DNA of 51,047 bases from a virus, in the IMG/VR virus record IMGVR_UViG_3300046808_000728, positions 1 through 51,047 of that record; one strand, written 5' to 3'. The position numbers were made by a program, and so were the translations under genes. Of the stretch, positions 7,745 through 47,311 are shown in pieces. Numbering within the stretch: position 1 is the stretch's first letter; each line of letters opens with the position of its first letter. The notes beneath the pieces were generated by a model. The model was not told the origin of the DNA. It ran no database searches and worked only from the letters and a program-made list of their open reading frames with translations.

Positions 7745-7754
7745 ATAAATACTA
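7745..7754 (+). promoter_or_regulatory. Late-type promoter for phoH
   Basis: The sequence ATAAATACTA (TAAATA at 7746-7751) matches the T4 late consensus TATAAATACTATT. It ends 3 nt before the ATG at 7755 and 6 nt before the ATG at 7758. No -35 lies 16 bp upstream. The spacing used elsewhere favours the second ATG as the start. Confidence 0.65.
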
Positions 7755-7757
7755 ATG

Positions 7758-8498
7758 ATGAGCGTAAAACGTGCTACGCGAAAGCGTAAAGAAGTGCCGG
7801 ATCTCGAAAGAGAATTTATGGAGTCATATAAAAAGAATTTCGATTTAAACAATTTGAAATTGAAAAAACACTTCCCGTTTACAGACAACCAAACGAGATG
7901 TTATTATACGATAAATGATAACAATACCAACATGGTATTTATTGATGGACTAGCTGGAAGCAATAAAACATACCTGTCTGTATATGCAGCCCTTGAGCAT
8001 TTGAAAGAGGGTAAATGTGAACAGATCATTTATATCAGATCCGTCGTCGAAAGCTCTTCAAGAAGCTTGGGAGCGCTTCCCGGTGAACTTGATGAAAAGT
8101 TCAGTCCTTACACATTACCTCTAATGGACAAGCTATCAGAGATAGTAGATGAAGGAAGCACTCACGCATTGTTCAATCAAAAATATATCAAAGCGATTCC
8201 CGTGAACTTTGTACGAGGATTGACATTTCACGATTCATTTGTGATCATTGATGAAGCCCAGAACCTAACTAGAGGTGAATTGACCACAATCTTAACCAGA
8301 TTCGGGAGAAACAGCAAATACATTATATGCGGTGATGCCAATCAGAGTGACATCAAAGACTCTGGTTTCTCAAAAGTGTTTCAATTATTCAATACCGATC
8401 ACTCATATAAAAACAACATACACTGCGTCAAATTCGACGTTGACGATGTTGTAAGAAGCCCAATACTCAAGCATATTACTCAAATTTTGGGCGTTTGA
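7758..8498 (+). CDS. phoH: PhoH-like P-loop ATPase
   Basis: A PhoH core with FIDGLAGSNKTYLSVYAALEHL (P-loop about residue 60), IIYIRSVVESSSRSLGALPGELDEK (the PhoH R(P/S)V...lGfLPGd.dEK motif, about 92-116), FVIIDEAQNLT (Walker B, about 161-171) and IICGDANQSD (sensor-like). PhoH proteins are ATPases common in marine phages; their role is unsettled. The P-loop reads GxxGSNKT, so the Gly normally before Lys is Asn, which is unusual for this fold. Two consecutive ATG codons (7755, 7758) are available and the promoter spacing favours 7758. The neighbouring gene is convergent and ends one base beyond its stop. A hairpin terminator lies just downstream. Confidence 0.85.
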   Translation: MSVKRATRKRKEVPDLEREFMESYKKNFDLNNLKLKKHFPFTDNQTRCYYTINDNNTNMVFIDGLAGSNKTYLSVYAALEHLKEGKCEQIIYIRSVVESSSRSLGALPGELDEKFSPYTLPLMDKLSEIVDEGSTHALFNQKYIKAIPVNFVRGLTFHDSFVIIDEAQNLTRGELTTILTRFGRNSKYIICGDANQSDIKDSGFSKVFQLFNTDHSYKNNIHCVKFDVDDVVRSPILKHITQILGV

Positions 8499-8726
8499 TC
8501 AGTTGTTACCCCAACTAGTTCCGTTGAACCAGTCCAGCCCCCTTTGATTCTCAATCGGGGCTGGTTTTGGTGCAGGGTAATGAATTACTTCAGGCTGAAT
8601 CTCGACGGGTGGTTCTTCTTTTTGAACTTCTTCTTTTTCAATCTTTCCGAATTCGGATGTTTCGATGGTAGAGGTTCCAAAAACTTTAAACGATTCGTCC
8701 TCGATTGCTGATACTTCAATTTTCAT
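8499..8726 (-). CDS. Small acidic/proline-rich hypothetical protein
   Basis: Not recognised. From ATG at 8726 it is 75 residues: MKIEVSAIEDESFKVF, then a Glu/Lys segment (KIEKEEVQKEEPPVEIQ), a Pro/Ala linker (HYPAPKPAPIENQ) and a C-terminal GLDWFNGTSWGNN. The layout suggests a short beta region, a flexible arm and a terminal aromatic peptide that might bind a partner. An in-frame ATG at 8744 exists, but an early-type promoter has its -10 (TATATT, 8736-8741) downstream of it, so 8726 is the start that can be transcribed. Its stop abuts the phoH stop, and its 3' coding region contains the phoH terminator hairpin. Confidence 0.65.
   Translation of the reverse strand: MKIEVSAIEDESFKVFGTSTIETSEFGKIEKEEVQKEEPPVEIQPEVIHYPAPKPAPIENQRGLDWFNGTSWGNN
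8534..8568 (+). terminator. Rho-independent terminator for phoH, inside the convergent gene
   Basis: CCAGCCCC (8534-8541) pairs with GGGGCTGG (8557-8564), with an inner TTGA/TCAA stem, followed by TTTT (8565-8568). It acts on plus-strand transcripts leaving phoH. It is located wholly in the coding sequence of the opposing gene. Confidence 0.65.
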
Positions 8727-8735
8727 ATACTCAGC

Positions 8736-8763: not shown

Positions 8764-8769
8764 TCTAGA

Positions 8770-9611: not shown

Positions 9612-9613
9612 GT

Positions 9614-10066: not shown

Positions 10067-10070
10067 AATG

Positions 10071-10457: not shown

Positions 10458-10458
10458 A

Positions 10459-10926
10459 TTAATAAGTTGAATTTATTGCGTTTGTATTGACTGCTTGCAA
10501 CCCTTTTTTAATTCTTTCCGATCCTTTTTTATAAGCTTGTATGGCATCTTTTGCCAACTTTTGCCTCTCCGCGACTGCTCCTTTAGCTGCTTGTGCAGAA
10601 GTTCCAAATAATCTAGCGGCCATTCCTTTCAAACCACTGGATGCAGTATCTGCAAGTTTTTGAACTTCCTTATCAATTTCATATGTACCAGTTCCAGCAT
10701 TTATACTTTCGGCATCTTCTTCTTCCGAATTGAATCCTTCAGAACCTTTCAATTGCAAAACGTAGGTTTTGTTATTTTCAACATCATCTATGTAAAAATT
10801 ACCGTCTCCACTCATTCCAAATTTAACGCCAACACCTTTTAAAAATGATTTAAAATCATGTAAATCCGTAAAAAATTCACTATTTTCTGGATTATATTCC
10901 TCTACGAGATCTAAAAACTTACTCAT
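10459..10926 (-). CDS. Hypothetical protein, first gene of a late-type operon
   Basis: A 155-residue protein, not recognised. The N-terminal half is a compact alpha/beta region (FFTDLHDFKSFLKGVGVKFGMSGDGNFYIDDVENNKTYVLQLKG). The C-terminal half is an Ala/Lys-rich helix (LADTASSGLKGMAARLFGTSAQAAKGAVAERQKLAKDAIQAYKKGSERIKK), possibly membrane- or DNA-associating. Its ATG follows TAAATA by 6 nt, and the TAA of that motif is the stop codon of the upstream gene. It heads the operon of five small genes ending at 8770. Confidence 0.55.
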   Translation of the reverse strand: MSKFLDLVEEYNPENSEFFTDLHDFKSFLKGVGVKFGMSGDGNFYIDDVENNKTYVLQLKGSEGFNSEEEDAESINAGTGTYEIDKEVQKLADTASSGLKGMAARLFGTSAQAAKGAVAERQKLAKDAIQAYKKGSERIKKGLQAVNTNAINSTY

Positions 10927-10932
10927 GCATAA

Positions 10933-10938
10933 TATTTA
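10933..10938 (-). promoter_or_regulatory. Late-type promoter for the 8770-10926 operon
   Basis: On the minus strand TAAATATTATGC precedes ATG 10926; TAAATA occupies 10933-10938, with a 6-nt spacer. The first three bases are the stop codon of the 10936-11478 gene. No TTGAC-like element lies 16 bp upstream. Confidence 0.68.
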
Positions 10939-12113: not shown

Positions 12114-12386
12114 TTACATTTTCTTATTCTTCTTACCATTTTTCTTACTCTTAGCACCTTTTTGATGTTTTAAAGGATCGAATATATTGTTTATTTTATT
12201 TCTTCTACTAATCCCTAACACTTTAGGAATAACAGTAGACCCAGTTGCATAACTATCAGTGTTTTCAATAGAACCGCCTTCTAAACCGGGACTATCACCA
12301 AGAACATCAGCAGCCATCATGTTTTCAATATACATAGATTCATATATATCTTGTAATTTATCCATTTCATGTCTTGACATTCTCAT
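12114..12386 (-). CDS. Small basic-tailed hypothetical protein, late-type
   Basis: A 90-residue protein. An N-terminal helix (SRHEMDKLQDIYESMYIENMMAADVLG) is followed by a Gly/Ser/Thr-rich linker and a basic tail ending GAKSKKNGKKNKKM. Not recognised; the helix-plus-basic-tail layout would suit binding to DNA or to a procapsid surface. Its ATG lies 5 nt after TAAATA (12392-12397), and a terminator follows, so it looks like a late monocistronic unit. Another ATG at 12380 is in frame. Confidence 0.55.
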   Translation of the reverse strand: MRMSRHEMDKLQDIYESMYIENMMAADVLGDSPGLEGGSIENTDSYATGSTVIPKVLGISRRNKINNIFDPLKHQKGAKSKKNGKKNKKM

Positions 12387-12401
12387 ATCTTTATTTACTA
12401 T
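12374..12401 (+). promoter_or_regulatory. Early-type promoter for the uvsY-like/uvsW/gp55 operon
   Basis: TTGACA (12374-12379), a 16-bp spacer, TACTAT (12396-12401), 11 nt to the ATG at 12413. Its -35 lies inside the first codons of the divergent minus gene and overlaps that gene's late-type promoter region. Confidence 0.68.
12392..12397 (-). promoter_or_regulatory. Late-type promoter for the 12114-12386 gene
   Basis: TAAATA on the minus strand, 5 nt before ATG 12386, no -35. It is interleaved with the early-type promoter read in the other direction, sharing positions 12396-12397 with its -10. Confidence 0.6.
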
Positions 12402-12819: not shown

Positions 12820-14265
12820 TTGATAACGTTCCATTACGATAGCAATACTAGAAAAGGCCAGATCATTTGCGACATGGTTGTAATGACTCTTCTTAAAAAG
12901 AAGTTCAGTGTCAAAAATGAATCTGCAAAATTCATGAAAAAATTTGGAAGAACCATTCCAGATAAGAAATTTGCTATCGATAAGATGGGAAGATTCGATT
13001 TCGGCTTGTATAAGGATATTTTGAAGTTTCTGAAGGATCAAAACTTCAACACTATAGATTTCACAGATGAGTTCAAAACACACTTGCGATGTGGTATTGG
13101 AGTGGATGAGATTTTTGACGGTTTTGCGTACCCTCACAGGGACTTTCAGAAGGAAATAGTGTCTTTGTGCCTAAAACACGGTAGAGGCACTGTAAAGAGC
13201 GCTACAGGCTCAGGAAAGAGCTTCTGTGTAGCATCTCTGATTGAGAATTTCTGGAGAAACAGAAAGAGCAGATCATTCAAAGCATTGGTGATCGTGCCGG
13301 GAATATCATTAGCTTCCCAATTAGTGGGTGATTTCTCTGATTACAAGGTGAATTTCACTTACAGCAAGTGGACAGGCACATCAAAACTTGAAGATACCGA
13401 CGTTGTAATAGTCAATAGTGAGAACTTGACATCTAAAGTCAAGGACAACCCTTGGATTTATGATGTTGATTTATTGATAGTTGATGAGTGTCACCGTGTC
13501 ACCACAACCAGCAAGCTATCAAAGATCATCCCGAAGTTCAAAACACCCAACAGGTTTGGTTTTACAGGAACATTTCCAAAGGATGTTTACGAAACTTGGA
13601 AAATAATAGGAACATTCGGTCCTCTGTTGTTCGAAAAGAACAGCAAAGATCTGAGAGATGAGAAAATACTAACAGATGTTAGTGTAAAAATGATAAAACT
13701 CATTCATCCAGAGATGAACAAGCCTAAAAAAAGCAAAAAGAAGGATAAAACTCCAACGGAAGATTATAATAATGAGCTTTCATTCATATACAATTCATCT
13801 TCTCGAAATAATATAATCAAAAAATTAGCAAAGGGGCTTTCGAACAACACATTGATTCTGGTAAACCATTTGGAACATGGTGATATTTTATATGAAAACT
13901 TGAATTCCTTGGAAGGAAAAGAAGTGTTGTACATAAAAGGTGATGTGGATATTCAAAATAGACTCGAAGGCATCCAAAATATGGAAACTTCGGATAATAT
14001 TATATGTATAGCCATGAGTAGTATATTCTCAACTGGTGTAAATATTAAAAATCTCCACAATATCATATTCACTGCCGGTGGAAAAAGCTTTATACGAATA
14101 GTTCAAGGCATAGGACGAGGACTAAGACTCCATGAGAACAAACAGTCGTTGCGCATATTGGATATAAATGACAATTTGAAATATTCAGAATCACATTCTC
14201 AACAAAGAAAAGATATTTACGACGAGGAAAAGATCCCGTGGAGTGAAAAAGAAATAATTTTATGA
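12820..14265 (+). CDS. uvsW: UvsW-type superfamily 2 helicase
   Basis: The 481-residue protein has an N-terminal ~100-residue DNA-binding region, then HRDFQKEIVSLCLKHGRGTVKSATGSGKSFC (Q-motif and Walker A, about 107-137), ALVIVPGISLASQLV (Ia), LLIVDECHRV (DECH Walker B, about 221-230), RFGFTGTFP (III), VLYIKGDVD, and a C-terminal VQGIGRGLRLHENK (motif VI, about 427-440). T4 UvsW remodels branched DNA and R-loops and links late replication to recombination. The apparent start is TTG at 12820, 2 nt after the previous stop; the next ATG would remove conserved N-terminal sequence. Its end overlaps gp55 by 4 nt (ATGA). Confidence 0.88.
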   Translation: MITFHYDSNTRKGQIICDMVVMTLLKKKFSVKNESAKFMKKFGRTIPDKKFAIDKMGRFDFGLYKDILKFLKDQNFNTIDFTDEFKTHLRCGIGVDEIFDGFAYPHRDFQKEIVSLCLKHGRGTVKSATGSGKSFCVASLIENFWRNRKSRSFKALVIVPGISLASQLVGDFSDYKVNFTYSKWTGTSKLEDTDVVIVNSENLTSKVKDNPWIYDVDLLIVDECHRVTTTSKLSKIIPKFKTPNRFGFTGTFPKDVYETWKIIGTFGPLLFEKNSKDLRDEKILTDVSVKMIKLIHPEMNKPKKSKKKDKTPTEDYNNELSFIYNSSSRNNIIKKLAKGLSNNTLILVNHLEHGDILYENLNSLEGKEVLYIKGDVDIQNRLEGIQNMETSDNIICIAMSSIFSTGVNIKNLHNIIFTAGGKSFIRIVQGIGRGLRLHENKQSLRILDINDNLKYSESHSQQRKDIYDEEKIPWSEKEIIL

Positions 14266-14714
14266 AAGTAAACAAGGAAGTAATTAAGCAATATTATGTA
14301 AAGCCGTCTGAATTTTCAAAACAGATTCAGGAATATTATGACACTGATAAAATGACCAACGAGTTGGCTATGAATATATTGAAAATTGCTGAAAATCTCA
14401 GCTACAATTGGAGATTTATAAATTATACCAAATCGTGGAAGGAAGAAATGATTGGAGATGCTGTTATTAAAATGTATTCAGCGTTGGATGGAAAGAAATA
14501 CAAGCCGGGATTTGGATTTAGTCCATTTAGTTATTTCAACCAGATTGCGTGGAATGCATTTACCAATAGAATAAAGAAAGAAAACAAGCAACACGAAGGC
14601 TTGCAAGAGTATAAGCAGATGATGTACGAGCAACATTTAATGGAATCAGAGGGTGATATTTACGTCAAGCAAGCCAATTTTGATGACGATGATTACGAGT
14701 ATTCAGACGATTGA
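14262..14714 (+). CDS. 55: Late-transcription sigma factor gp55
   Basis: A 150-residue protein. MTNELAMNILKIAENLSYNWRFINYTKSWKEEMIGDAVIKMYSALDGKKY (about 32-83) followed by KPGFGFSPFSYFNQIAWNAFTNRIKKENKQ (about 82-112) matches T4 gp55's region-2-like core (Y.F.nY...eEMv.Dgie......dp......Npf.YFtqi.y.AFlrRI.kEkKQ). The C-terminus is very acidic (DDDDYEYSDD), where gp55 carries its clamp-contacting tail. gp55 replaces sigma70 on host RNA polymerase and recognises a TATAAATA-type -10 without a -35, which fits the TAAATA promoters seen across this window. Start and upstream stop overlap as ATGA. Confidence 0.82.
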   Translation: MKVNKEVIKQYYVKPSEFSKQIQEYYDTDKMTNELAMNILKIAENLSYNWRFINYTKSWKEEMIGDAVIKMYSALDGKKYKPGFGFSPFSYFNQIAWNAFTNRIKKENKQHEGLQEYKQMMYEQHLMESEGDIYVKQANFDDDDYEYSDD

Positions 14715-17581: not shown

Positions 17582-17607
17582 TTGACATGCGAATGGTTTG
17601 ATATAAT
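17582..17607 (+). promoter_or_regulatory. Early-type promoter for the GT-B glycosyltransferase gene
   Basis: TTGACA (17582-17587), 14 bp, TATAAT (17602-17607), 6 nt to the ATG at 17614. A 16-bp spacer would instead give TAATTA (17604-17609). It is embedded in a 15-bp inverted repeat. Confidence 0.6.
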
Positions 17608-18815: not shown

Positions 18816-19091
18816 TTATTTGAATTCTGAATATTGTGCCAGTGTTGGTCGGAGTCGTTCAAACATACCTTTTAATTCATTGAAGCTATTCATATCAGAT
18901 GGATCTTTAAAAAAATCAGCCTTGGTGGTTTTGTAAAAAGCTATAGTCCCTTGTAAATATTTCTCAATGGCGCTGCAAATCTGATTGGCTTCAGCCTTGA
19001 CTTTTTCGATCTGCGGATTATAGTTCGCGTACGATGATTCAAAATCGAGATTTTCATAAATCTCGCTCAATTCATTGATATAGTCTGTCAT
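18816..19091 (-). CDS. Small helical hypothetical protein, late-type
   Basis: A 91-residue protein from ATG 19091 (MTDYINELSEIYENLDFESS...). It is predicted helical throughout (QIEKVKAEANQICSAIEKYLQGTIAFYKTTKADFF, FNELKGMFERLRPTLAQYSEF), with no recognised family. It stands alone on the minus strand between two plus-strand genes and has its own TAAATA promoter 5 nt before the ATG, so it should be expressed late. I guess a small virion or assembly protein. The convergent glycosyltransferase gene ends 8 nt beyond its stop. Confidence 0.6.
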   Translation of the reverse strand: MTDYINELSEIYENLDFESSYANYNPQIEKVKAEANQICSAIEKYLQGTIAFYKTTKADFFKDPSDMNSFNELKGMFERLRPTLAQYSEFK

Positions 19092-19102
19092 AATTATATT
19101 TA
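19075..19102 (+). promoter_or_regulatory. Early-type promoter for DNA polymerase
   Basis: TTGATA (19075-19080), a 16-bp spacer, TATTTA (19097-19102), 6 nt to the ATG at 19109. The -10 is the exact complement of the late-type TAAATA used on the other strand. Confidence 0.58.
19097..19102 (-). promoter_or_regulatory. Late-type promoter for the 18816-19091 gene
   Basis: GTTAAATATAATT precedes ATG 19091 on the minus strand; TAAATA ends 5 nt before the ATG. It occupies the same base pairs as the polymerase -10. Confidence 0.68.
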
Positions 19103-23475: not shown

Positions 23476-23505
23476 AAAAGGGCGGGGTCAACCCCGCCCT
23501 TTTTT
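23474..23505. terminator. Strong bidirectional terminator
   Basis: GGGCGGGG (23480-23487) pairs with CCCCGCCC (23492-23499) around a TCAA loop. The stem is extended by A6/T6 flanks, giving a 14-bp stem with U-tracts on both strands. It separates convergent uvsX (plus) and the 23505-25283 gene (minus), overlapping both ends. It is conspicuously GC-rich for this genome. Confidence 0.92.
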
Positions 23506-25283
23506 TATTTTGTATTTCGCCAATGCCAGTAATTTAATGGCTTTGTTATATTTTTATTTTCGTAAACAACTGAACGTCCTTTGAATTTGCTATCTGCTTT
23601 GATTTGCGTGTCCATGTAATCCAGTGTGTAATCATATGATTCCTGAACAGGTGGTTGTTGCACGGGTTCAGCGCCCGCTTGCATCATTTCTTTATCTTGT
23701 CTGACGAGAAGTTTATTCATTCTTTCTGTGATCATTTCTTGTATGGCCTTTAATTCCATTAGAATTACATTTTTAACAGCGTCTAACTTGCCTTGGTTTT
23801 CTGGTTTATTGAAAACTGCACGAACAACTGAGTTTTCAATACCCGGAATTATTGATTTATCAGGATCGATGTCAGCTTTACCCAACGAACTATTGGTCAT
23901 ACCTTCGTAAATACTTTCCAATACGATGGCTTCATTCGGGGCCGTTCCTAAAGATGCAATTTTATCAACAACTTTTGTTTTAAAATCATCCGCTGTAAAT
24001 ACTAATCCCTTCGCTTCATATGAATCGTAATACTTATCCAAGAATGAGGTTATGAGATTATAACTAGACATCGTAATGTTGTTCACAGCTTCTCTTGGGA
24101 ATTCAATGCTGGGTTCGATTGTTGATTTTATAGTCGGCTGTTTGGATGGATCATATGGTGTGTTTATGTGTTTTTTGACATCGACACCCCACACGCTGAG
24201 AATTGTGGAAAGATATTCATTCAGATCATATGATGATGTTTCTTCAATTTCATCTGCTACCGTTCCAGTGTCTTGATATTTTTTTAGAGTTGGTGAGATG
24301 GCCATGGCATCTTTTCTCTTTGTTATAGTTTCTCTCTGGAGACGGTTTAAATGTTTCAACTCTTTGATAATTGGTTCGAGAGGAACTCGCATGGTGTTGT
24401 ATTCGGATTTTGAAACACCAGCATTAGCGGTTGAGAAGATTCTGTCGGATGCAGTTGCCGAACTTGATCGGCTTCTGTCTGTTAATCTATAATGATCAAA
24501 TATATCAAGTGTCAAAGCCGCATCAAACGCTGGGCTTTGGATTACTTCGCGTCTTTTTAAGACTTCTGGATCAGTTGGATTTTTTATGAACAGTGTATTG
24601 AAAGCCGATTCAACTGCTCTTGTGTCTGTTTTCGGATCATCATTTACATACTTGACAATATCAAGCGGACCCATCAACGCGGCTTTTTTATTACCCGGAT
24701 TTTCGAGCATATCGAAACGTTGTTGGATCAAATCATCCAATCTTCGTCCAGATGTGTATGTTTTTTTATTTGATATATTGTCTCCAATTTCAATCATTTG
24801 CTTTGTTACAGCCTTTGGCAATACAAGCGCTGCGAATTTATCACTTGATAGAGATTTGAAATCTGGGTAATATTTGCTATAAATAATAGATTCGATTAAT
24901 TTTATGGCAGAATCATAATGTGGATTTTCTTGAGAATTTGGAACCACATCTTCAAATGTGTCGATGTCGAATTTTTTGAAATCTTTATCCACATCTTTTA
25001 ATAAATTATCTACGAGTCTATTGATGACTGCACTTATTGATTGATTTGTGTATATGAATTCATTTGTCATGTCGTTGTAAACTCCAATGACAGTTTTTCT
25101 AAATAAATTCGGCTTGGATGATGAACTTCCGCGAAGAGTTGGATCTAAATCTCCTAATTGCGGGCTTAATTGTGTAAATTTAGCATTTAATGGCCCGTAT
25201 GCGGTTGCTGGTCTAGCCATTTCTTGCAATTCTTGCAAATCGCTTATGCATTCTAATAAATAATCAAATTTGATCTTCTCCAT
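23505..25283 (-). CDS. Large hypothetical protein, late-type, probable virion protein
   Basis: A 592-residue protein starting at ATG 25283 (MEKIKFDYLLECISDLQELQEMARPATAYGPLNAKF). It is predicted mainly helical with Ser/Thr-rich joints. There is no motif, transmembrane segment or signal peptide that I recognise. Near the C-terminus KAIQEMITERMNKLLVRQDKEMMQAGAEPVQQPPVQES is a coiled-coil-like helix and a Pro/Gln linker. It has its own late-type promoter (TAAATACATCC then ATG) and a dedicated terminator, and interrupts the plus-strand replication genes. This makes a late structural or ejected protein the best guess. An in-frame TTG at 25310 lies upstream of the promoter and is unlikely. Confidence 0.65.
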   Translation of the reverse strand: MEKIKFDYLLECISDLQELQEMARPATAYGPLNAKFTQLSPQLGDLDPTLRGSSSSKPNLFRKTVIGVYNDMTNEFIYTNQSISAVINRLVDNLLKDVDKDFKKFDIDTFEDVVPNSQENPHYDSAIKLIESIIYSKYYPDFKSLSSDKFAALVLPKAVTKQMIEIGDNISNKKTYTSGRRLDDLIQQRFDMLENPGNKKAALMGPLDIVKYVNDDPKTDTRAVESAFNTLFIKNPTDPEVLKRREVIQSPAFDAALTLDIFDHYRLTDRSRSSSATASDRIFSTANAGVSKSEYNTMRVPLEPIIKELKHLNRLQRETITKRKDAMAISPTLKKYQDTGTVADEIEETSSYDLNEYLSTILSVWGVDVKKHINTPYDPSKQPTIKSTIEPSIEFPREAVNNITMSSYNLITSFLDKYYDSYEAKGLVFTADDFKTKVVDKIASLGTAPNEAIVLESIYEGMTNSSLGKADIDPDKSIIPGIENSVVRAVFNKPENQGKLDAVKNVILMELKAIQEMITERMNKLLVRQDKEMMQAGAEPVQQPPVQESYDYTLDYMDTQIKADSKFKGRSVVYENKNITKPLNYWHWRNTK

Positions 25284-25288: not shown

Positions 25289-25294
25289 TATTTA
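25289..25294 (-). promoter_or_regulatory. Late-type promoter for the 23505-25283 gene
   Basis: GTTAAATACATCC directly precedes ATG 25283; TAAATA ends 5 nt before the ATG. It lies 4 bp from the -35 of the divergent early-type promoter. Confidence 0.7.
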
Positions 25295-31077: not shown

Positions 31078-31083
31078 TAAATA
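31078..31083 (+). promoter_or_regulatory. Late-type promoter within the replication cluster
   Basis: TTTAAATACTATT directly precedes ATG 31089 and differs from the T4 late consensus TATAAATACTATT at one base. TAAATA ends 5 nt before the ATG, and there is no -35. Confidence 0.75.
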
Positions 31084-31088: not shown

Positions 31089-31373
31089 ATGAACGATGAC
31101 GAATCGGATTATACGGAAGACGATATAAAGAAACTTTTAATTGATTCGTTAAAAATAAAATTAAAAGATGATAGGAAAAAACCTAGTCGGGTTAAAATGA
31201 ATCAGGCTATAATTTCGTCTTTAAGTGAGTTCATGAGTTGCTTTGCCCTCATAGGTTATGATTTAGAAGGCAATTACGTCAATCTAAGGATAAGCAAAAC
31301 ACCTATGGATAAATCTGCTTTGGAGCATTCCTTTATAAAGGAGTTTAGTAAATTTATAAATGAGTCAATGTAA
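31089..31373 (+). CDS. Small hypothetical protein with its own late-type promoter
   Basis: A 94-residue protein. The acidic N-terminus (MNDDESDYTEDDIKKLL) is followed by SLKIKLKDDRKKPSRVKMNQAIISSLSEFMSCFALIGYDLEGNYVNLRISKTP and a C-terminal helix FIKEFSKFINESM. Not recognised. A near-perfect late consensus precedes it. The T4 late co-activator gp33 is a small protein of similar size, but I see no sequence signature and do not assign it. One-base overlap (TAATG) with the next gene. Confidence 0.5.
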   Translation: MNDDESDYTEDDIKKLLIDSLKIKLKDDRKKPSRVKMNQAIISSLSEFMSCFALIGYDLEGNYVNLRISKTPMDKSALEHSFIKEFSKFINESM

Positions 31374-32715: not shown

Positions 32716-33159
32716 TCAGACATACTTGTATTTCGCATTCTTGGTCTGCGCCATGAATCCGAGGAATCCTTGGTGCAACGCAGCCAAGTCAGAAGCAACA
32801 CGGGATATCTTCGTTTGCTGTGATTGTTTCATCTTATCAAACACTGTATCAGGCTCCGCATTAGCTAATCTGCTTTGAATGCTTGTTGGGTCTTCGCTAT
32901 TCAAGACCTTTAAGAATTGATCGATTGAATCAATCCATGTTTGCAGTTCACCTACGATTTGCTGGTTTCTTTTTGAGAGGATATCAGCTAATTCGCTTTG
33001 TGTAGTGTCCATATCAGTCGATGCGTCGAATGCAGTTGGGTCAGTTCCATCATCTAGAGAGTTTTCCATAGCATCTCTTTCGAGATCGTCATCCATCATA
33101 TCAATATCATCGGCTTCTAATAAAACCTTCTTAAATCTAGCAGCGTATAGATTGGTCAT
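32716..33159 (-). CDS. Acidic helical hypothetical protein, late-type
   Basis: From ATG 33159 the protein has 147 residues: TNLYAARFKKVLLEADDIDMMDDDLERDAMENSLDDG, then helices STDMDTTQSELADILSKRNQQIVGELQTWIDSIDQFLKVLN and KMKQSQQTKISRVASDLAALHQGFLGFMAQTKNAKYKYV. The conserved-looking C-terminal helix and acidic N-terminus resemble small virion proteins of marine T4-type phages, but no function is known to me. The frame extends to 33216, but the late-type promoter (TAAATA 33165-33170) leaves ATG 33159 as the start, 5 nt downstream. Confidence 0.6.
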   Translation of the reverse strand: MTNLYAARFKKVLLEADDIDMMDDDLERDAMENSLDDGTDPTAFDASTDMDTTQSELADILSKRNQQIVGELQTWIDSIDQFLKVLNSEDPTSIQSRLANAEPDTVFDKMKQSQQTKISRVASDLAALHQGFLGFMAQTKNAKYKYV

Positions 33160-33164: not shown

Positions 33165-33170
33165 TATTTA
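33165..33170 (-). promoter_or_regulatory. Late-type promoter for the 32716-33159 gene
   Basis: ACTAAATACTGCT directly before ATG 33159; TAAATA ends 5 nt before the ATG, no -35. It is divergent from a second late-type promoter 13 bp away. Confidence 0.7.
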
Positions 33171-33183: not shown

Positions 33184-33189
33184 TAAATA
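33184..33189 (+). promoter_or_regulatory. Late-type promoter for the 33195-34284 operon
   Basis: GAATAAATATACAC directly before ATG 33195; TAAATA ends 5 nt before the ATG, no -35. Confidence 0.7.
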
Positions 33190-33194: not shown

Positions 33195-33557
33195 ATGGCA
33201 AGCAAAGATTCCCCATATTCTACAGGTTTCATGTCTTCAAATATTAATTTTGATACTGATACCGAACAAATGTTTAGACAGATCAAAAGAGAAGAAAACG
33301 AAACACACGAAGCTATTCCAACTTTGCCATATGAAATGACAATGTTGCCACAATACTGCGCGAATATTGTCGATAATGCCATGAATGCATCAATTAACAT
33401 AGAAAATGTACTAAAATCTAAGAATTTTAAAAATAAAGACGACCTTTTAAAGTTAAAGAACAATTTGGATAAAATGATAAAATATCTCATCAGAAATGTC
33501 GATCCAACTCTTGACAAATTCGCAATAAGGCGTAGTATGGACTCAAATGACGAGTAA
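33195..33557 (+). CDS. Helical hypothetical protein, late-type
   Basis: A 120-residue protein. A flexible N-terminus (ASKDSPYSTGFMSSNINFDTDTEQM) is followed by helices YEMTMLPQYCANIVDNAMNASINIENVLKS and KDDLLKLKNNLDKMIKYLIRNVDPTLDKFAIRR. Not recognised. It begins the late-type plus-strand trio and overlaps the membrane protein gene by 11 nt. Confidence 0.55.
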   Translation: MASKDSPYSTGFMSSNINFDTDTEQMFRQIKREENETHEAIPTLPYEMTMLPQYCANIVDNAMNASINIENVLKSKNFKNKDDLLKLKNNLDKMIKYLIRNVDPTLDKFAIRRSMDSNDE

Positions 33558-38223: not shown

Positions 38224-38229
38224 TATTTA
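38224..38229 (-). promoter_or_regulatory. Late-type promoter for the 38215-35112 operon
   Basis: TTTTAAATATATAAAAT precedes ATG 38215; TAAATA occupies 38224-38229 and its TAA is the stop codon of the upstream gene. The spacer is 8 nt, longer than at other late sites. Confidence 0.5.
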
Positions 38230-39311: not shown

Positions 39312-39995
39312 TTATGAAATTCTATTCCAAACATACACACCGTATGATGGATTTGTTAGTGTTATAGGGGTTATTTGTGAAGCTCCAACCACTCCAGAAG
39401 TTCTTCCAACAGAAGGTACCACTGCGTTTCCCTCTAATCTATAAGAAACTGGGTTGGTTTGTAACCTTCCACCTCTCGCTAAGTAATTTGTAGAAATCAA
39501 AGAATCTTTATCTGCGGAAAAGTCTTCAATTTCGTTTGCTATGAAGTGAAAGTGATCCGGTATATTAGAAGAAGATAATGTTTGTTGATAAAAACCCCCA
39601 GTATTAGCACCTACGGTCACAGTTTTGGAAACACCCCCAGCATCAGTTCCGGTGCCGACTCCTGTTATCACCATTCCCTGTGATACTTGAACCCACGACG
39701 TTCCTATAAAGCGGGTAGCGGGGTTTGTGGAATCCAATGTTAATAAGCACGACCCTACTGGATAAATGTAATCAATTAATTTGATTAGATTTGGCTGAGA
39801 TGGGAAAATTATGTTTCCTGCGCTCAAGGAACCCGTTACGACAGCCCCATTGTTCTCCATACCCAGAGAAAGAGATGATTTGTTGCCTAAACCGTCATAA
39901 ACATCGGTTATATTTGCAGATGAAAGCGATTCTGCTTCCACATGCAACAAAGATCCGTATAAATCAGATATGAACTGATCGGTGAGTGATTTCAT
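39312..39995 (-). CDS. Baseplate/short-fibre collar-like protein
   Basis: A 227-residue protein. After an N-terminal region (FISDLYGSLLHVEAESL) it has LIDYIYPVGSCLLTLDSTNPATRFIGTSWVQVSQGMVITGVGTGTDAGG (about 71-119), the YPvGSi......NPa..fgGTW..v..Grvl.G collar/insertion block of tail-fibre tips. SSSNIPDHFHFIANE (about 138-152) carries the histidine motif and YGVYVWNRIS the conserved C-terminus. Such proteins cap baseplate wedges or short fibres and can bind metal at the HxH site. TAAATA ends 6 nt before its ATG. Confidence 0.78.
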   Translation of the reverse strand: MKSLTDQFISDLYGSLLHVEAESLSSANITDVYDGLGNKSSLSLGMENNGAVVTGSLSAGNIIFPSQPNLIKLIDYIYPVGSCLLTLDSTNPATRFIGTSWVQVSQGMVITGVGTGTDAGGVSKTVTVGANTGGFYQQTLSSSNIPDHFHFIANEIEDFSADKDSLISTNYLARGGRLQTNPVSYRLEGNAVVPSVGRTSGVVGASQITPITLTNPSYGVYVWNRIS

Positions 39996-40001: not shown

Positions 40002-40007
40002 TATTTA
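40002..40007 (-). promoter_or_regulatory. Late-type promoter for the 39995-38227 genes
   Basis: GCATAAATATAACTA directly before ATG 39995; TAAATA ends 6 nt before the ATG. A TTGAAA at 15-bp spacing is probably fortuitous. Confidence 0.66.
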
Positions 40008-40024: not shown

Positions 40025-41734
40025 TCAAGATAAATCCACTAGTTTCTTTTGCAGATCATTTATCAATGTGAATATTCGCTGCAAAGATACAACATTTACA
40101 TTCTCGTTACCGTTTAATATCAAGTTAGTCAACTCATAAGTTAATTCAGGCGTTGGAATTACAGATAATGTTGGATTTGCCAAATCTCCAGTGCTTGATT
40201 TCACCTTTTCAACGATGGTTGCGATGTTGATGGTATCAATTAGGAGATTTGTGATGATTGAATTGAAAGAAATACCAACGCTGCTCGTATTACATTTTAT
40301 CCCCGTGAATGCTTTTGATACATTTAATGGCACATAGGTTTCATACAACGAAGATCTGGTTTTAGATATGTATATACGCCCGATGTTATGCATTATGTAA
40401 TACAGATATCCATTTTTTTGGATTGTATTGTACGTCAAGTTGTTGTAACTGTTTGACAACATCTTGTTTGAATTGAACTTTATTTGGATATCGTTTATGT
40501 TTTCTTCGGTTTTGTTTATGATATAATCATTTAAATAGAAGAAATTTGAAGATCTAGCTTTAGCCAATCTGTTATTTATGTTTAAAAGCGGGCGAATTTC
40601 GGTTTCCGCTCTAGGTTGATCCGATTGTTCTATCTGGGTGATGGTCTTTTTCAGATAAAAGAAGTCAGAGTCCTCTGTTGAAAACTCAATTCCTGTAGCT
40701 TCGTCGGCATATAACAATTCTTCACGACGAAATGTGTTTGTGTAATCATCGCTATCGAAAAATATGAAATAATAGAGTCCATTCTTCTGACCGACTGCTA
40801 TTACATTGTCGTCTTCTTTTCTTATGTCAATTGCTATGAGATTATCTAGATCCAAATCACTCAATGATAGTTGTAATAGGATTTCATTTGAATATTTGTT
40901 TTTCAAATACAGAACATTCCCACTGTATTCTGTTCGCTTGTTGAATCCTATCGTATATAATCCTATATTTTCAGAGTTGGCCGAAATTGAAATGCTATCT
41001 TTTAAAAATAGATTGCTACAATCTTCGTATTTTGATAAATTATATATTAAAAGTTCAGAATTTGTATAAAAATACAATTCATCAGAATCATAATCCTGTT
41101 CAATTTTTAAATTTACTGAGTTTTCAGCCTGACTGACTATTGTTAATTTCTTAGATGGATCGTTGAAAGTCCCGCTTAGAGCGTATGTGATATTATCAGA
41201 CACACAATAGTATATGAAATTGTCATTGGCGTCTATTATGAAAGAACCAGACTCCACTCTATCCAAGAATGCCCATTCTTTAGAATAACTAAATGGATCG
41301 CTGTGTGTATACACGTTTTTCCCATACATTTCATCATCCGGTGTTCTAGAATCAGCCTCTGTTGAAGTTAATGTATAAAAGTAGGTGTTTTTGTAGTCGT
41401 AAGGAACATTGTTTGGATTTATGAAAATTGAATTTTTATAAATTTTCAAATTATTCTCATCAATGCGTCCGAATAACTCATTCAAGGTGTTGTCGTTTAG
41501 TATATCCAACGCATTTGGAACTGCTAAATCGATAGTTGGTGTGATTCCATCGAAAACAGCATAATTTAAATACAAATCACTTAAAAAGTTTGATTTTGGA
41601 GTCAATTCTCTGGATTCATAGCTTGGTTTTTTACCAGAATATGCAACGCCGCTCAACACATGGAAATAGCCACTGTAAGGAGCTGAATCCAGTGTGAATG
41701 CATTGCCATCATCATATTTGAAATAAGAAATCAT
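40025..41734 (-). CDS. Large structural protein, baseplate/tail
   Basis: A 569-residue protein of alternating short strands, rich in Tyr, Asn and Ser (SGSFIIDANDNFIYYCVSDNITYAL, LYFYTNSELLIYNLSKYED, IAIDIRKEDDNVIAVGQKNGLYYFIFFD). Repeated '.n.l.i.......v.v....lyyi' blocks suggest a beta-propeller-like middle. The C-terminus is helical (TPELTYELTNLILNGNENVNVVSLQRIFTLINDLQKKLVDLS). No named family. It overlaps the 41731-43944 gene by 4 nt and belongs to the same late operon. Confidence 0.6.
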   Translation of the reverse strand: MISYFKYDDGNAFTLDSAPYSGYFHVLSGVAYSGKKPSYESRELTPKSNFLSDLYLNYAVFDGITPTIDLAVPNALDILNDNTLNELFGRIDENNLKIYKNSIFINPNNVPYDYKNTYFYTLTSTEADSRTPDDEMYGKNVYTHSDPFSYSKEWAFLDRVESGSFIIDANDNFIYYCVSDNITYALSGTFNDPSKKLTIVSQAENSVNLKIEQDYDSDELYFYTNSELLIYNLSKYEDCSNLFLKDSISISANSENIGLYTIGFNKRTEYSGNVLYLKNKYSNEILLQLSLSDLDLDNLIAIDIRKEDDNVIAVGQKNGLYYFIFFDSDDYTNTFRREELLYADEATGIEFSTEDSDFFYLKKTITQIEQSDQPRAETEIRPLLNINNRLAKARSSNFFYLNDYIINKTEENINDIQIKFNSNKMLSNSYNNLTYNTIQKNGYLYYIMHNIGRIYISKTRSSLYETYVPLNVSKAFTGIKCNTSSVGISFNSIITNLLIDTINIATIVEKVKSSTGDLANPTLSVIPTPELTYELTNLILNGNENVNVVSLQRIFTLINDLQKKLVDLS

Positions 41735-43944
41735 ATGTAATTTGTGAATTTTATGTTATTTATAATTGAAGTTGCTGGAATGTTTTGTTGGATCTTGTCC
41801 AACATGACGTTTTTCAGATATTCCAGAGTATCAGAGTTACTGATTCCTAAATTATCAATCGATACATTGATATAATTACTCTTATTTGAATTCCCATTGC
41901 AAATTGTCTGGATATGTTTGATATCATCGAGAGAATTTCTCATTCCACATGGTAGAGTGATAACAATATCATCAACCGCTTGCCTGTTTTGTATAAATGG
42001 AATTATAAATGCTAAATTCTCATCAATTTTTTGATCTGCTATTATTATATCGGTTGTTATACCATTCGGCTCTAAAAGATCTTGATCGTTGTAATAAAAT
42101 TTACCATATATGATCGATTTGTTGGAAAATTGAGCGATTTCAGTTGATATATCCAACACTTTGGCGTTATTTAAAAAGAAGAATCCTTTTCCAGTCAGGG
42201 CATCATAACTGAAACAAACGAAATTATCTTTGTACTTCTTATAAAGTGTCGTTGCGTCGAATATCAAGGTTTGATTATTTGAATTATTGAATAATTTCAA
42301 TTCAAATGTTATATCATCCGCTGTTTTTGTAATTTTTACCCCAGCATCTATATTATTTCGAAGACTTTGGATAGTCCACTCTGGATCAGATCCATTAAAG
42401 TAAAACGATAGCGTTATCTTGCCAGCATCATTGATCAAATTTTGATAATTTAATGGGATTTGATTTGCTCCACCACAATCGACAGTGTTTGTTGCTGTAA
42501 TAATATCGAATAATTCATTGTTATTGAATCTGTGGTATTCGTATTTTCTATTAGGTTGAAAGCTCAGATCACTACGCTTGTCAAAAATCACATATTTCGA
42601 AACATTTGAACTCAATGTTGCGTTTGTTGTGATTAAATTTTCAATTGCCTGATCATATGTGATATCAAACACGCCTTTTTCAGACAATGCATTCTTCTTG
42701 GATATCAAATCCGGGTAGAAGTATCGATCAACCCATGTTTTAGTTTCACCTACACCTGATAACCATGTGCATAGATAAACCTTTCCATCTTCTGAATAGT
42801 TGTTTGTGTCTATTTGATAGATTTTATCAGCATATTGTGGAGTGTCGTATCCATATGATCCACAATCCACGAATCTGGTGTCATTTATATTCAGATTGCT
42901 GAATGGATACATACTTGAAGGAGCCTGAAATTCAGTGATACCTCGTCTTATTAAATAAGGTTTGTTGTAAAATACGTAATTTAAAGAAAGTTCAGATGAA
43001 TTTTCAGAATCAATTGTGTTTGTTATATTTGTATAATTTCTGAAATCATCAACCGCTATGTCATATCCAGATGATAGAAGATTCTGACCGTTTGTGAATA
43101 CATCACTTACAGTTAGTTGATTTTTTAAAACGATAATGTCTTTATATTCAGATGAGTATGGAGAATGAATTAAAAAGTTGTTGCTTAAATCAAACTCACT
43201 TTTAGAAGAATCGATTATATTCGAAGCATTCTGATATGTCACGAATGATGTGTTTGGAGATACTTCAAGTTTATATTCTTTAGGTCTAGCGACTTTGAAA
43301 TTGCTTGTTAGGATTGTATTTTTGTTTTCATCATTCAATTCAATCAATACAAGCCCATCGCCTTCTTTCTTTACCAGTTTATTACTGGAAAGAGCCTTTA
43401 TAAGAAATAGTTCTTTCTTGTCGTTGTATATGTATTTGAAAAATTGAGGATTTTGCTCATCCTCTTCATCGGGAAGTAGAACATCCCATTTAAATAACAG
43501 ATCGCCACTATCTTCACTTAGTAGATAAGTTTTTCCAGATTCTATAAATGATATTGTGCATAAATTATTTTGATAAAAGTCCAAATCAAAATATGTTCGT
43601 TCGCTTAATTCATCATCGAATGTTATGGAATAAGTATTTGCATTTGCAATCGGTGTTGATCTTGACAAATAAACAGATCCAGATTGCAAATAAGTCAGAA
43701 GTTTTTCTGATTTTAAAGTATTTGTGTTGAATTTTAAAAAAGTATCTGCTCTTGTATTATTCGTCAGATAAAAGTTTGAATATTCTTTGGTTTTGAAATC
43801 ATTAAAACCGGAAAGCGCCAAAGGGAAATTGAAAGAAAATCCGTTTTGATATGTTCGTCTTACTTGTTTATAAGAAGTATTATCCATCGTTGACTTCCAT
43901 GATTTAGAAGTCAACGATGATAGAGATTTTATGATCGTTTCCAT
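41731..43944 (-). CDS. Large structural protein, baseplate/tail, possible LamG-like domain
   Basis: A 737-residue beta-rich protein. Residues about 480-640 (KITLSFYFNGSDPEWTIQSL, VKITKTADDITFELKLFN, NFVCFSYDALTGKGFFFLNN, SIIYGKFYYNDQD, GITTDIIIADQKI) follow a LamG/concanavalin jelly-roll rhythm. The C-terminus has DTLEYLKNVMLDKIQQNIPATSIINNIKF, which suits wedge contacts. No family name can be given. Its ATG is 5 nt after a TAAATA whose TAA ends the upstream gene. Confidence 0.6.
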   Translation of the reverse strand: METIIKSLSSLTSKSWKSTMDNTSYKQVRRTYQNGFSFNFPLALSGFNDFKTKEYSNFYLTNNTRADTFLKFNTNTLKSEKLLTYLQSGSVYLSRSTPIANANTYSITFDDELSERTYFDLDFYQNNLCTISFIESGKTYLLSEDSGDLLFKWDVLLPDEEDEQNPQFFKYIYNDKKELFLIKALSSNKLVKKEGDGLVLIELNDENKNTILTSNFKVARPKEYKLEVSPNTSFVTYQNASNIIDSSKSEFDLSNNFLIHSPYSSEYKDIIVLKNQLTVSDVFTNGQNLLSSGYDIAVDDFRNYTNITNTIDSENSSELSLNYVFYNKPYLIRRGITEFQAPSSMYPFSNLNINDTRFVDCGSYGYDTPQYADKIYQIDTNNYSEDGKVYLCTWLSGVGETKTWVDRYFYPDLISKKNALSEKGVFDITYDQAIENLITTNATLSSNVSKYVIFDKRSDLSFQPNRKYEYHRFNNNELFDIITATNTVDCGGANQIPLNYQNLINDAGKITLSFYFNGSDPEWTIQSLRNNIDAGVKITKTADDITFELKLFNNSNNQTLIFDATTLYKKYKDNFVCFSYDALTGKGFFFLNNAKVLDISTEIAQFSNKSIIYGKFYYNDQDLLEPNGITTDIIIADQKIDENLAFIIPFIQNRQAVDDIVITLPCGMRNSLDDIKHIQTICNGNSNKSNYINVSIDNLGISNSDTLEYLKNVMLDKIQQNIPATSIINNIKFTNYI

Positions 43945-43949: not shown

Positions 43950-43955
43950 TATTTA
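43950..43955 (-). promoter_or_regulatory. Late-type promoter for the 43944-40025 genes
   Basis: CCTTAAATATTTAA directly before ATG 43944; TAAATA ends 5 nt before the ATG and starts with the stop codon of the 43953-44594 gene. Confidence 0.7.
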
Positions 43956-44594
43956 AGGCGGTAGCGTAGTTGTTGTCGTAACCGGACCCGGTGTGGTTGT
44001 TGATGTTGGACCCGGTGTGGTTGTTGGGGACGGTGTGGTTGTGGATGCTGGTATCGGGGGTGTTGGTGGTGGGGTTGTCGTATTTAAGCTTTCAGCTTCT
44101 ACTAAGAACCCTCCTTTATCCACAGAAAATATAAACTGTTTGTTGTTATCAGATACTTGCATAATATTTGCATATATATGCTTCATATCCCCGATACTTT
44201 CAAAATAATCGGATGTTATTATTTTGAAAGGTTGCACTATTGAACATTTGTCACCATTTATATATTCTATATTGACTTCGGCAGATAATAATTTATATCT
44301 GGATGTTTCTGATGGATAATAGAGGTGGGATACTTCATTTGAAAGTATTGAACTTATTTTATTATAAAGTATTTCTGGAATTATACTGTCAACTCTGTAG
44401 TCTTTACTGAATGAATTTTCAAAAATAGCAGACTCTCCATCACCCCAATTGATTCTTAGATACATGGGAATTTCAGACTCTGATATCCCACTCAATACAA
44501 AGGTCACAGAAGTCAAATCATACAGTTTGACTTCTGGTAATGTTGAAGATAGTGCGGTTGCTGAACTAGCAAATCCAATTGTGTAAGTATTCAT
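43953..44594 (-). CDS. PKD-like structural protein with Thr/Pro-rich C-terminal tail
   Basis: A 213-residue protein. The N-terminal half is a beta sandwich (VKLYDLTSVTFVLSGISESEIPMYLRINWGDGESAIFENSF, about 22-62) with the WGDG turn of PKD domains. The C-terminal 42 residues are a Thr/Pro/Ser tail (TTTPPPTPPIPASTTTPSPTTTPGPTSTTTPGPVTTTTTLPP), made partly by a 24-bp direct repeat (about 43984-44026). The tail is a third mucin-like segment in the late block. Overlap with the 44591 gene is 4 nt. Confidence 0.65.
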   Translation of the reverse strand: MNTYTIGFASSATALSSTLPEVKLYDLTSVTFVLSGISESEIPMYLRINWGDGESAIFENSFSKDYRVDSIIPEILYNKISSILSNEVSHLYYPSETSRYKLLSAEVNIEYINGDKCSIVQPFKIITSDYFESIGDMKHIYANIMQVSDNNKQFIFSVDKGGFLVEAESLNTTTPPPTPPIPASTTTPSPTTTPGPTSTTTPGPVTTTTTLPP

Positions 44595-47299
44595 AGAGTT
44601 AATTCTTCGTTTATCAATGATACTGGTCCTGATGATAGATAAACATTCAGTATAGTGCTATAATTAGTTGTGAATAGGTTTGAGTAACTCTCAAACGATC
44701 CAAAATACACATCGTGTTTCAAGAATGACACATTCGGATTAATGATGAAATCATATTCATTCAATGCGATCATTTCATTTTGATCTTTTATCAAAAACGA
44801 GATGTTGTATATATTATTGGTGCTATTATACACCAGAACTGGTTTATCTACAATATCAAACCGAACATTGCCACCAGAAACACTGAAAAATTGAGTGTTT
44901 GAAGTGTAATCTGTGTCATTTATTGGGAATATTTTCAAGTTTTTACTTGTCAACGTATCATACTTATAAATCTCTGGATATATGATGTAATTATTTGTTG
45001 AGATTGTCGGAGTTGTACTGTTGAGAACACAATAATATACATCGGTTCCCACTTTAAATCTATTCGACAGTTGATTTACATCATTTGTTGAGTGTTCGAT
45101 CACATAAGCTGTCGTATTTGGATTTACGAAACTTGAATTTTCATATTTTATCTTTTCGAAAATGAGATAATTGTCGGTTTCGATGGATAGTGTATCATAT
45201 GCAATCTCAAATTTATTAACGCTTGATAATTGAGCGAATACAGCGGAATTGTACTTGGAACTGAGATAAGAAAATTCACTCAGAAGAGCTGATACTCTAT
45301 TGGTAGAGCCGTTTCTCACAAAAATCTTACCATTCAAGTCAATTCTGTCGTTGTAAGTGTTTCTATCAAAAGAATCCACTTCAAATGAGGTAGCATTATC
45401 GGTTTGATTGATATATGTGTAATTTACTTTATCAAATTGATAATCATAGACAAATTCTGTTGTAAATTTACCTCCATCCACATTCAAGACTGAATTTCCA
45501 GAAAGTGGTCGTAGTGTTTGTGTAAAATCGGCTGTTAATGTTGGATAAGCGGCATCTAAAAGAGCGCGTTGGAGCGGTGATTTCGTATTTAACGCAGCTT
45601 CAAACAGAGTATTGTAGTAATACACTCCAGAACCCGGAAAACTGTTTAAATCGGAGTTTATAGGATCACTTAGAAACTCCGTATCATTTTTCATGAAGAG
45701 TCCGCCATCTCTTATTTTAAATGAAGGTTTTAAATTGGACTCCGTTGGCGCTTTTAATTCTTGATAAGGTGAGAAAAACCTGAAGAAGAGGGTCCAAGCA
45801 CCTGAAGTTGAAGAAAATGAATTGGTGTATGATGATAACCCAGATCTTATTGTTTCGGTATATGATGTATCATCATATGTGAAATAATTAAAAGCATATT
45901 CTTCACCATATAAATCATCGTAGAACTGATAACCATTTAATATCAGACTTTTGATGTATGATGGTGTCCTTACTTGGATGTTTGATTTGAAATTGTCGTC
46001 TATTTTAAATAGACCAAACTTATTTCCATACACATCTCCTTTTTGATCTGCAATATATCCAGATTCGAATATTGATTCGAATGATTGATCAAACGAATCG
46101 GATTTCTCAGCAACATATCCGTAGTATTTTGTATCTGATTTATTAGATATCGCTTGATTGACAGCGTTTCCAGATGATGTGTTTCGTTTTAGATATTCAC
46201 CATCTACGAAAAATGTCAAAACCTCATCATTACTTCCAAATATGTTTGGATCAGGGAAAAAGTATAACGAATTTGGTTGTAAATTGGCGGTATTTATTAA
46301 AAACGATTCGTTTTTACCATCTACAAAGACAATACTTGTTTTACTTGGCTTGAAGAACCCCAAGTCTTCTTTAGTTATTAAAGATCCTTTGTGTGTGGAT
46401 GCTGTCGTCGGGTAGTTTCGGTTTAATACATTGCCGCTTTTAGCAGAAGCTTTGAAAAGCTGACCTGATACAAAATCGGTTGATGTCGAACCAGTTGAAA
46501 TGTAATAAAAATCACTACTGACGCTCTTTTCAGTTAGTTTTCTTTTATTATCAAAGAGCTGATCAACTTCTTTCAGAGCTTTAATTTCATCCGATACACC
46601 TACAAATACTTCAGAAATCAATTCTTCATTTGATTTAAGGAAAATGTTTTGATTATAATCCAAGTCCTTGTAATCATATACATATTGATCAGGGGTTTGA
46701 TCGAAATATGTGCCATATACATTGTATAGCTCTTCAATATCAATTTTCAGCTTTGTTTTTATCGCTTCGATATCATATTCTATTGGTCCAAGCTCTTGAT
46801 TTTCTAAGAATTCGAGGGTTTTTTCAAAAATTACCTTTTCAACTCCAAGTACGCTACCCTTTAGCTTTTTTCTAGTTATTTCGTATTTTACATCACTTCT
46901 TTTAGAATTGTAATATTTGCAAATATCTACAAGTTTTCTACTGTAAAACCCTAAAACTGTATCAAGATCGTACTCATCATTGAAATCAATCTTGGAAATG
47001 AATTCTTTTTCTTCCAGAGTTGTATATTTCAGATTTATATCCTTTATAAACTCTCTGTATTTCTCAACTATCAGGTTGTTTTCCGTGGAATTTGAGTTTT
47101 TCTTTTTGGTATTCCAACGCTTCAAGTATTCATTGTAATACGTTTGTAATACATCGGGTTCAAAGCTTATCGAAACGGTTTTGATAAACAATAAAAACGA
47201 CATTGGAGTACTAACATCCAATGCATTAATTTCTAAAACGTTTGGGTTTGTTATACTCTTTGGTACTTCGGGATACCCGTACTGTAGCGTCGATGACAT
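44591..47299 (-). CDS. Very large structural protein, probable baseplate component
   Basis: A 902-residue protein. The N-terminal 230 residues are helical (EKYREFIKDINLKYTTLEEKEFISKIDFNDEYDLDTVLGFYSRKLVDICKYYNSKRSDV), a segment that recurs in the large wedge-associated proteins of marine T4-type phages. The remainder is a long series of beta repeats rich in Asn, Ser and Tyr. It lies two genes from gp6, where T4 has gp7, so a gp7-like wedge role is possible but unproven. Its ATG follows TAAATA by 6 nt. Confidence 0.62.
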   Translation of the reverse strand: MSSTLQYGYPEVPKSITNPNVLEINALDVSTPMSFLLFIKTVSISFEPDVLQTYYNEYLKRWNTKKKNSNSTENNLIVEKYREFIKDINLKYTTLEEKEFISKIDFNDEYDLDTVLGFYSRKLVDICKYYNSKRSDVKYEITRKKLKGSVLGVEKVIFEKTLEFLENQELGPIEYDIEAIKTKLKIDIEELYNVYGTYFDQTPDQYVYDYKDLDYNQNIFLKSNEELISEVFVGVSDEIKALKEVDQLFDNKRKLTEKSVSSDFYYISTGSTSTDFVSGQLFKASAKSGNVLNRNYPTTASTHKGSLITKEDLGFFKPSKTSIVFVDGKNESFLINTANLQPNSLYFFPDPNIFGSNDEVLTFFVDGEYLKRNTSSGNAVNQAISNKSDTKYYGYVAEKSDSFDQSFESIFESGYIADQKGDVYGNKFGLFKIDDNFKSNIQVRTPSYIKSLILNGYQFYDDLYGEEYAFNYFTYDDTSYTETIRSGLSSYTNSFSSTSGAWTLFFRFFSPYQELKAPTESNLKPSFKIRDGGLFMKNDTEFLSDPINSDLNSFPGSGVYYYNTLFEAALNTKSPLQRALLDAAYPTLTADFTQTLRPLSGNSVLNVDGGKFTTEFVYDYQFDKVNYTYINQTDNATSFEVDSFDRNTYNDRIDLNGKIFVRNGSTNRVSALLSEFSYLSSKYNSAVFAQLSSVNKFEIAYDTLSIETDNYLIFEKIKYENSSFVNPNTTAYVIEHSTNDVNQLSNRFKVGTDVYYCVLNSTTPTISTNNYIIYPEIYKYDTLTSKNLKIFPINDTDYTSNTQFFSVSGGNVRFDIVDKPVLVYNSTNNIYNISFLIKDQNEMIALNEYDFIINPNVSFLKHDVYFGSFESYSNLFTTNYSTILNVYLSSGPVSLINEELTL

Positions 47300-47305
47300 T
47301 GATAA

Positions 47306-47311
47306 TATTTA
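47306..47311 (-). promoter_or_regulatory. Late-type promoter for the 47299-43953 genes
   Basis: AAGTAAATATTATCA directly before ATG 47299; TAAATA ends 6 nt before the ATG, no -35, in the 33-bp gap between the two large structural genes. Confidence 0.68.

Follow-up and report, generated by a model that had tools for sequence, protein, structure and literature searches.

Probable late promoter boxes and late transcription genes in the window

The DNA analysed here (the window) is a stretch of 51,047 bases with 35% GC from the IMG/VR record IMGVR_UViG_3300046808_000728, where it sits within an 89-kb contig, labelled G001. It comes from a T4-type phage: genes for gp46/47, gp43, UvsX, gp41, SSB, gp55, a primase and a UvsW-like helicase can be identified. 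Our subject is the hexamer TAAATA, the core of T4 late promoters, which stands a few nucleotides (nt) before a series of start codons in the window. The late-promoter sigma factor gp55, previously assigned to positions 14262-14714 of the plus strand, is indeed encoded there (phrog_234, E 2.3e-23; profile against T4 gp55, PDB 7d7c, E 1.7e-14), and its identity among six relatives is 56-72%. The gp45 sliding clamp is the activator of T4 late transcription. A clamp of the gp45/PCNA fold is predicted at 30015-30740 on the plus strand (AlphaFold2 mean predicted local distance difference test score 89.5; top Foldseek match PCNA, E 3e-11; PCNA profile, E 2e-3), and an ortholog of the clamp loader gp44 was found in G001 and four other contigs.

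All twelve TAAATA sites listed in the original prediction are present with the spacing given for them. Seven have a spacer of 5 nt (N5). Two of these lie on the plus strand, at 31078-31083 before ATG 31089 (gene 31089-31373) and at 33184-33189 before ATG 33195 (gene 33195-33557), and for both the box is found with the same spacer in 6/6 orthologs. The second is the right half of a divergent pair, whose left half is the minus-strand box at 33165-33170 before ATG 33159 (gene 32716-33159; 6/6 orthologs); 35 nt separate the two ATGs. The remaining N5 boxes, all on the minus strand, are at 12392-12397 (ATG 12386, gene 12114-12386; 3/3 orthologs), 19097-19102 (ATG 19091, gene 18816-19091; one of the two contigs with the gene, this being the window's own), 25289-25294 (ATG 25283, gene 23505-25283; no ortholog in the other contigs) and 43950-43955 (ATG 43944, gene 41731-43944; 5/5 orthologs, the other copies starting with GTG).

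Four sites have a spacer of 6 nt (N6). On the minus strand these are 10933-10938 (ATG 10926, gene 10459-10926 with the conserved N-terminus MSKFL; 6/6 orthologs), 40002-40007 (ATG 39995, gene 39312-39995 of the Gp10_C baseplate type; 5/5 orthologs) and 47306-47311 (ATG 47299, gene 44591-47299; 5/5 orthologs). The plus-strand box at 7746-7751 precedes ATG 7758 of a phoH-like gene (7758-8498; PhoH, PF02562) and is present in 7/7 orthologs. Here two ATGs stand in tandem at 7755 and 7758, and the box spacing fits the second, not the first; ATG 7755 would lie 5′ of the RNA start, because the pyrimidine-purine step is at 7756/7757. The twelfth site (38224-38229, minus strand), 8 nt before ATG 38215 of a tail-collar/fibre gene, did not stand. 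It was dropped from the set because the box occurs in only one of the five contigs holding the gene, and it is probably a chance occurrence and not a late promoter.

In total the window has eight copies of TAAATA-N5-ATG and four of the N6 form, as against about two per spacing in simulated sequence. When only ATGs opening at least 60 codons are counted, TAAATA occurs at N5-6 twelve times, whereas the 14 other anagrams of four A and two T give 0-3 each in the same test, though most of them are commoner than TAAATA. Ahead of all these sites, a run of minus-strand genes (window 1-7650, by open reading frame calling only) adjoins the replication module.

Conservation of the box among uncultured relatives

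How far does this arrangement extend among related phages? The DNA polymerase of the window is only about 31% identical to those of its nearest isolates, which are cyanophages. We found 48 loci with a gp55 relative and at least 578 stretches coding for a protein related to gp23, the major capsid protein. In the collection searched no phage isolate exceeded 60% identity in gp55 or gp23, and the group is therefore an uncultured T4-type clade, present in hundreds of viral contigs. For comparison we used 32 uncultured contigs, 14 and a further 18 picked by gp23; the profiles of spacer and of translation signals were computed on seven contigs, and the set of N5 sites used below comprises 201.

The same arrangement is present in these relatives. 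TAAATA-N5-ATG was counted 297 times against 38 for the reversed control in the 14 contigs and 339 against 26 in the 18 further ones, an excess of about tenfold over the 32. Before ATGs opening at least 60 codons (about 200 sites) the spacers form a sharp spike at exactly 5 nt, tailing off over 6-8 nt, and few boxes stand at 4 nt or more than 10 nt away. When every hexamer preceding an ATG was ranked without bias, TAAATA at spacer 5 came first by a wide margin. The spike appears in both bands of gp23 identity, at least 70% and 62-66%, and is absent from distant, T4-like gp55 loci with less than 45% identity. The two bases 5′ of TAAATA in the clade are a purine and a pyrimidine. A TTGAC at the -35 distance was found at 11 of the 201 sites, which bears out the absence of a -35 element claimed for the window. 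Operon-internal starts (same strand, gap below 15 nt) have the box in about 10-20% of cases, less often than most classes of start preceded by free space or by a change of strand. This result and the fixed spacer both agree with the original prediction. The stop codon of the upstream gene could double as TAAATA at only 32 of the 201 sites, and this explanation was rejected. A weak A/T tract, roughly G-AAA-TTT, lies upstream of the late box, 25-31 nt before the ATG, in the 201 sites; its position is near a region where T4 late promoters are reportedly unconserved.

The orthologs were then compared gene by gene, with G001 itself included in the counts. The box is present in all orthologs of gp17 (3/3), gp18 (4/4), gp20 (5/5), gp21 (2/2), gp13 (5/5), gp15 (5/5) and gp6 (5/5). 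It was found in 0/7 for each of the UvsW-like helicase, gp55, gp47, gp46, gp43, UvsX, gp41 and SSB. The exact box is also absent from gp4, gp23 and part of gp25. As start choice in this test preferred ATGs with a box, single cases may be inflated, but the contrast with the replication genes is not, because they were treated alike. The DNA immediately 5′ of the box is nearly unrelated between orthologs, while the proteins are conserved from their first residues (MSKFL, MATRTI, MSELC and others), from which it follows that the start codons are correct and the box is the conserved element. As judged from these orthologs, the box is confined to late genes.

Position of the predicted RNA start

The T4 late promoter is an 8-bp TATA box one helical turn 5′ of the start, with no -35 element, and its first base is numbered -13, so that the last A is -6 (PMC2988020). 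The +1 position falls six bases past that last A, so that with a spacer of 5 nt it would be the first base of the ATG. Of the 201 N5 sites, 88% have T or C immediately 5′ of the ATG and 1% have G there. In N7 and N8 sites, whose ATG is more distant, the pyrimidine-purine step remains unmoved at five and six bases past the box, which indicates that it tracks the box and not the codon, as a transcription start would. The codons found after the box at N5 are ATG (198), GTG (23), TTG (3) and CTG (1); ATG and GTG both begin with a purine, and TTG and CTG are at background level.

We detected 34 divergent gene pairs with a box on each strand, 33159/33195 of the window among them. Their start codons are mostly 26-40 nt apart, which leaves no room for leaders. 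The box lies at start-site distance from the start codon, as in genes with leaderless mRNA.

Translation signals and early promoters

In the seven contigs, tetramers resembling the Shine-Dalgarno (SD) sequence occur at -18 to -4 of 3-14% of starts and in 5-14% of control windows, about equally, and in nearly all contigs the starts show no excess. The corresponding values are 71% vs 2% in T4 and 48% vs 12% in Pelagibacter phage HTVC008M. This deficit spans all genes of the clade and not the late genes alone. Bacterial phyla with few SD genes tend toward nucleotide biases that have been ascribed to leaderless mRNA or to S1 (PMC5397173). Phage-encoded bS21 was considered as a translation switch and rejected: none was found in the group, only in HTVC008M.

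The early promoters have a similar layout. Before ATGs, TTGACA peaks at 28-30 nt and TATAAT at 6 nt, the spacing expected if a sigma-70 start falls on the ATG. In contig G006, 40 genes have the form TTAATTAAAACCGAAn-TAtAAT-N6-ATG, and in contig G005, 34 genes have gATwAAACACTAnnn-TAtAAT-N6-ATG, in each case nearly all on one strand and with a pyrimidine before the ATG in every copy. These genes suggest that the leaderless layout is not limited to gp55 promoters. The window has a candidate early promoter at such a distance, TATAAT at 17602-17607 (plus strand, TTGACATGCGAATGGTTTGATATAATTATGGTATG), 6 nt before ATG 17614 of a glycosyltransferase-like gene, whose ortholog in G005 and G011 has TTGACA with TAAATA at N5. 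The arrangement thus appears to go beyond what was originally predicted, with the early promoters of two relatives also locked to the ATG and the SD signal absent from all genes.

The boxes directly 5′ of TAtAAT-N6-ATG are specific to each contig, TTAATTAAAACCGAA with 40 copies in G006 (L070-L073) and ATwAAACACTA with 34 in G005 (L083-L085). Both TTAATTAAAACCGAA and ATwAAACACTA may be activator sites that serve early or middle promoters of the phage. Promoters of the Bacteroidetes type (TAnnTTTG) were rejected, as they show no enrichment, unlike TTGACA and TATAAT at positions linked to the start. The same two contigs encode tRNAs with the suppressor-type anticodon CTA (L092:13136-13210 and L069:3941-4013); TAG nonetheless terminates 8-9 long open reading frames in each.

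Comparison with known systems

The late system of T4 (Straboviridae; gp55/gp33/gp45) shares with the clade a gp55 sigma factor, a sliding clamp, the TAAATA core, the lack of a -35 element and the restriction to late genes. In both, the box would lie about one helical turn from the start, as measured in T4 and predicted in the clade. T4 has the box TATAAATA, a distance to the ATG that peaks at 24-28 nt and a strong SD, in agreement with the contrast drawn earlier between the window and T4 leaders, while the clade has a purine-pyrimidine pair in place of T-A, a spacer of 5 nt and no SD anywhere.

Cyanophages (Kyanoviridae) likewise have a gp55-type box, NATAAATA, 5′ of T4-like late genes (PMC2984593). 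However, Syn9, S-PM2 and P-SSM2 show no N5 peak, and their boxes are about 20 nt or more upstream (20-26 nt at the peak in Syn9). The isolate HTVC008M (NC_020484) is closer to the clade, with 12 TAAATA-N5-ATG sites, among them 6268, 7550, 18931, 19444, 31120 and 49748, several adjoining structural genes, but about half of its starts retain an SD, and other spacings occur in it as well. The trait is therefore partly present outside the clade. Prediction of late promoters in pelagimyophages has been reported as unsuccessful (PMC7029224).

The late promoters of phiKZ also have a phage motif overlapping the transcription start (TATG); there a phage-encoded multisubunit non-virion RNA polymerase uses an unrelated motif and starts at the G of TATG, with no gp55 (PMC4666361). 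Genes with leaderless mRNAs in bacteria and archaea resemble the clade in the constant distance from promoter box to start codon and in having no SD, but they are cellular genes served by host polymerase and factors, whereas in the clade the layout belongs to phage promoter classes, including what would be a phage-sigma regulon. We found no earlier report of a leaderless gp55 regulon in the literature searched, which lacked most subscription papers.

Discussion

In its DNA layout, the late regulon of this clade is arranged for leaderless or near-leaderless (0-3 nt) initiation, and at least two members have an early regulon arranged in the same way; the RNA step we infer. Very probably the late promoters are positioned so that the mRNA would start at the start codon, leaderless and without an SD. 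TAAATA would then be a gp55-type late promoter element occupying -11 to -6 in T4 numbering, and RNA polymerase with the phage gp55 would initiate 6 nt past its last A. Selection would have set the start codon on the initiation nucleotide or 1-3 nt beyond, and promoter-proximal late mRNAs would open with AUG (or GUG). SD sites would have been given up genome-wide. The host presumably tolerates leaderless mRNAs or prefers them, and would translate the first gene of each unit in this form and unit-internal genes by termination-reinitiation or from A-rich non-SD starts.

Several observations weigh against this reading, and the gp23 gene is an exception to the claim that the whole late regulon is so arranged. 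The claim held for the late genes with the box in every copy, but the gp23 ATG has a conserved hairpin leader of about 55-60 nt instead of the exact box, and its mRNA is expected to be the most abundant late one. The hairpin is AUGAGGUC-loop-GACCUGA, with compensatory forms such as AGGCUA/UAGCCU and AGGAA/UUCCU. In the form ACCAAGANNNAUGAGGUC-loop-GACCUGAA...AUAGAAAG it lies about 60 nt 5′ of gp23 in L151-L183 and many of L184-L230, and a second hairpin is often present before gp23 in more distant relatives; no Rfam family matches the leader. Further, the N6 sites show no clear pyrimidine-purine step and are ambiguous. The query with Syn9 gp33 gave no confident ortholog of this coactivator, the match in G006 being weak (E 0.026). 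The 5′ ends at start codons are, for every clade member, predicted from DNA sequence, and the host's ability to translate leaderless mRNAs is presumed. A search with the DNA polymerase and gp23 in contigs of bacterial genomes gave no match, and a cyanobacterial host was set aside on the weak negative evidence that the Photo_RC gene is absent from 16 contigs. Also 5′ of capsid genes, G003 has a tandem 24-residue repeat protein at 56.4-57.6 kb (L063); the repeated "leader" at 56-57 kb was rejected as a promoter, since it is this protein repeat.

Could the boxes be promoters whose leaderless products are a minor by-product, the functional mRNAs coming mainly from promoters further upstream? Many box genes do lie within same-strand runs, and gp23 shows that leaders are still in use. 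Yet TAAATA is found at -40 to -16 of only 2-6% of starts in the clade, against 24% in T4, genes at strand switches have no cistron upstream, and the complete conservation of the box argues that it is needed. We consider this explanation improbable. Still less credit is due to the idea that TAAATA is a translation signal, A/U-rich non-SD or Kozak-like, inside a longer leader. Non-late starts of the clade are likewise A-rich, and Flavobacterium, which is without SD, relies on the identity of certain bases near the start (PMC6847099). However, the box occurs at genes of late type but at none of the replication genes, its anagrams score far lower, and the step that follows the box rather than the ATG in N7 and N8 sites, the short space in divergent pairs, and the different box (TAtAAT, N6) in the same place before early genes of G005 and G006 all speak against it. 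Chance in an AT-rich genome combined with selective listing, to which the 73 copies of TAAATA in the window and a few unconserved sites such as 38215 might point, is refuted for the set by the anagram, simulation and reversed-pattern controls and by ortholog conservation, and has next to no probability, though it may account for single sites.

Leaderless late initiation, the reading we prefer, may be part of something wider. By a narrow balance we favour the view that the whole clade is without SD-led translation and that early, late and perhaps all promoter-proximal genes are leaderless through promoters of each class, host-type early and gp55 late, slid to the start codon, the capsid gene alone being known to keep a structured leader. 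If all promoter-proximal genes are indeed leaderless, the host would be a bacterium using mainly leaderless, non-SD initiation.

The T4 late system is a textbook example of regulon control by a phage-encoded sigma-like factor. In the clade this machinery, as far as its genes and box show, appears to have been re-aimed so that the starts of transcription and translation would coincide across whole genomes. For T4-type phages known from metagenomes, the layout may give an exact rule by which to locate late promoters and start codons. It points to a host that initiates translation in an unusual way, and these phages would provide a natural test of viral adaptation to a host whose translation does without SD pairing.

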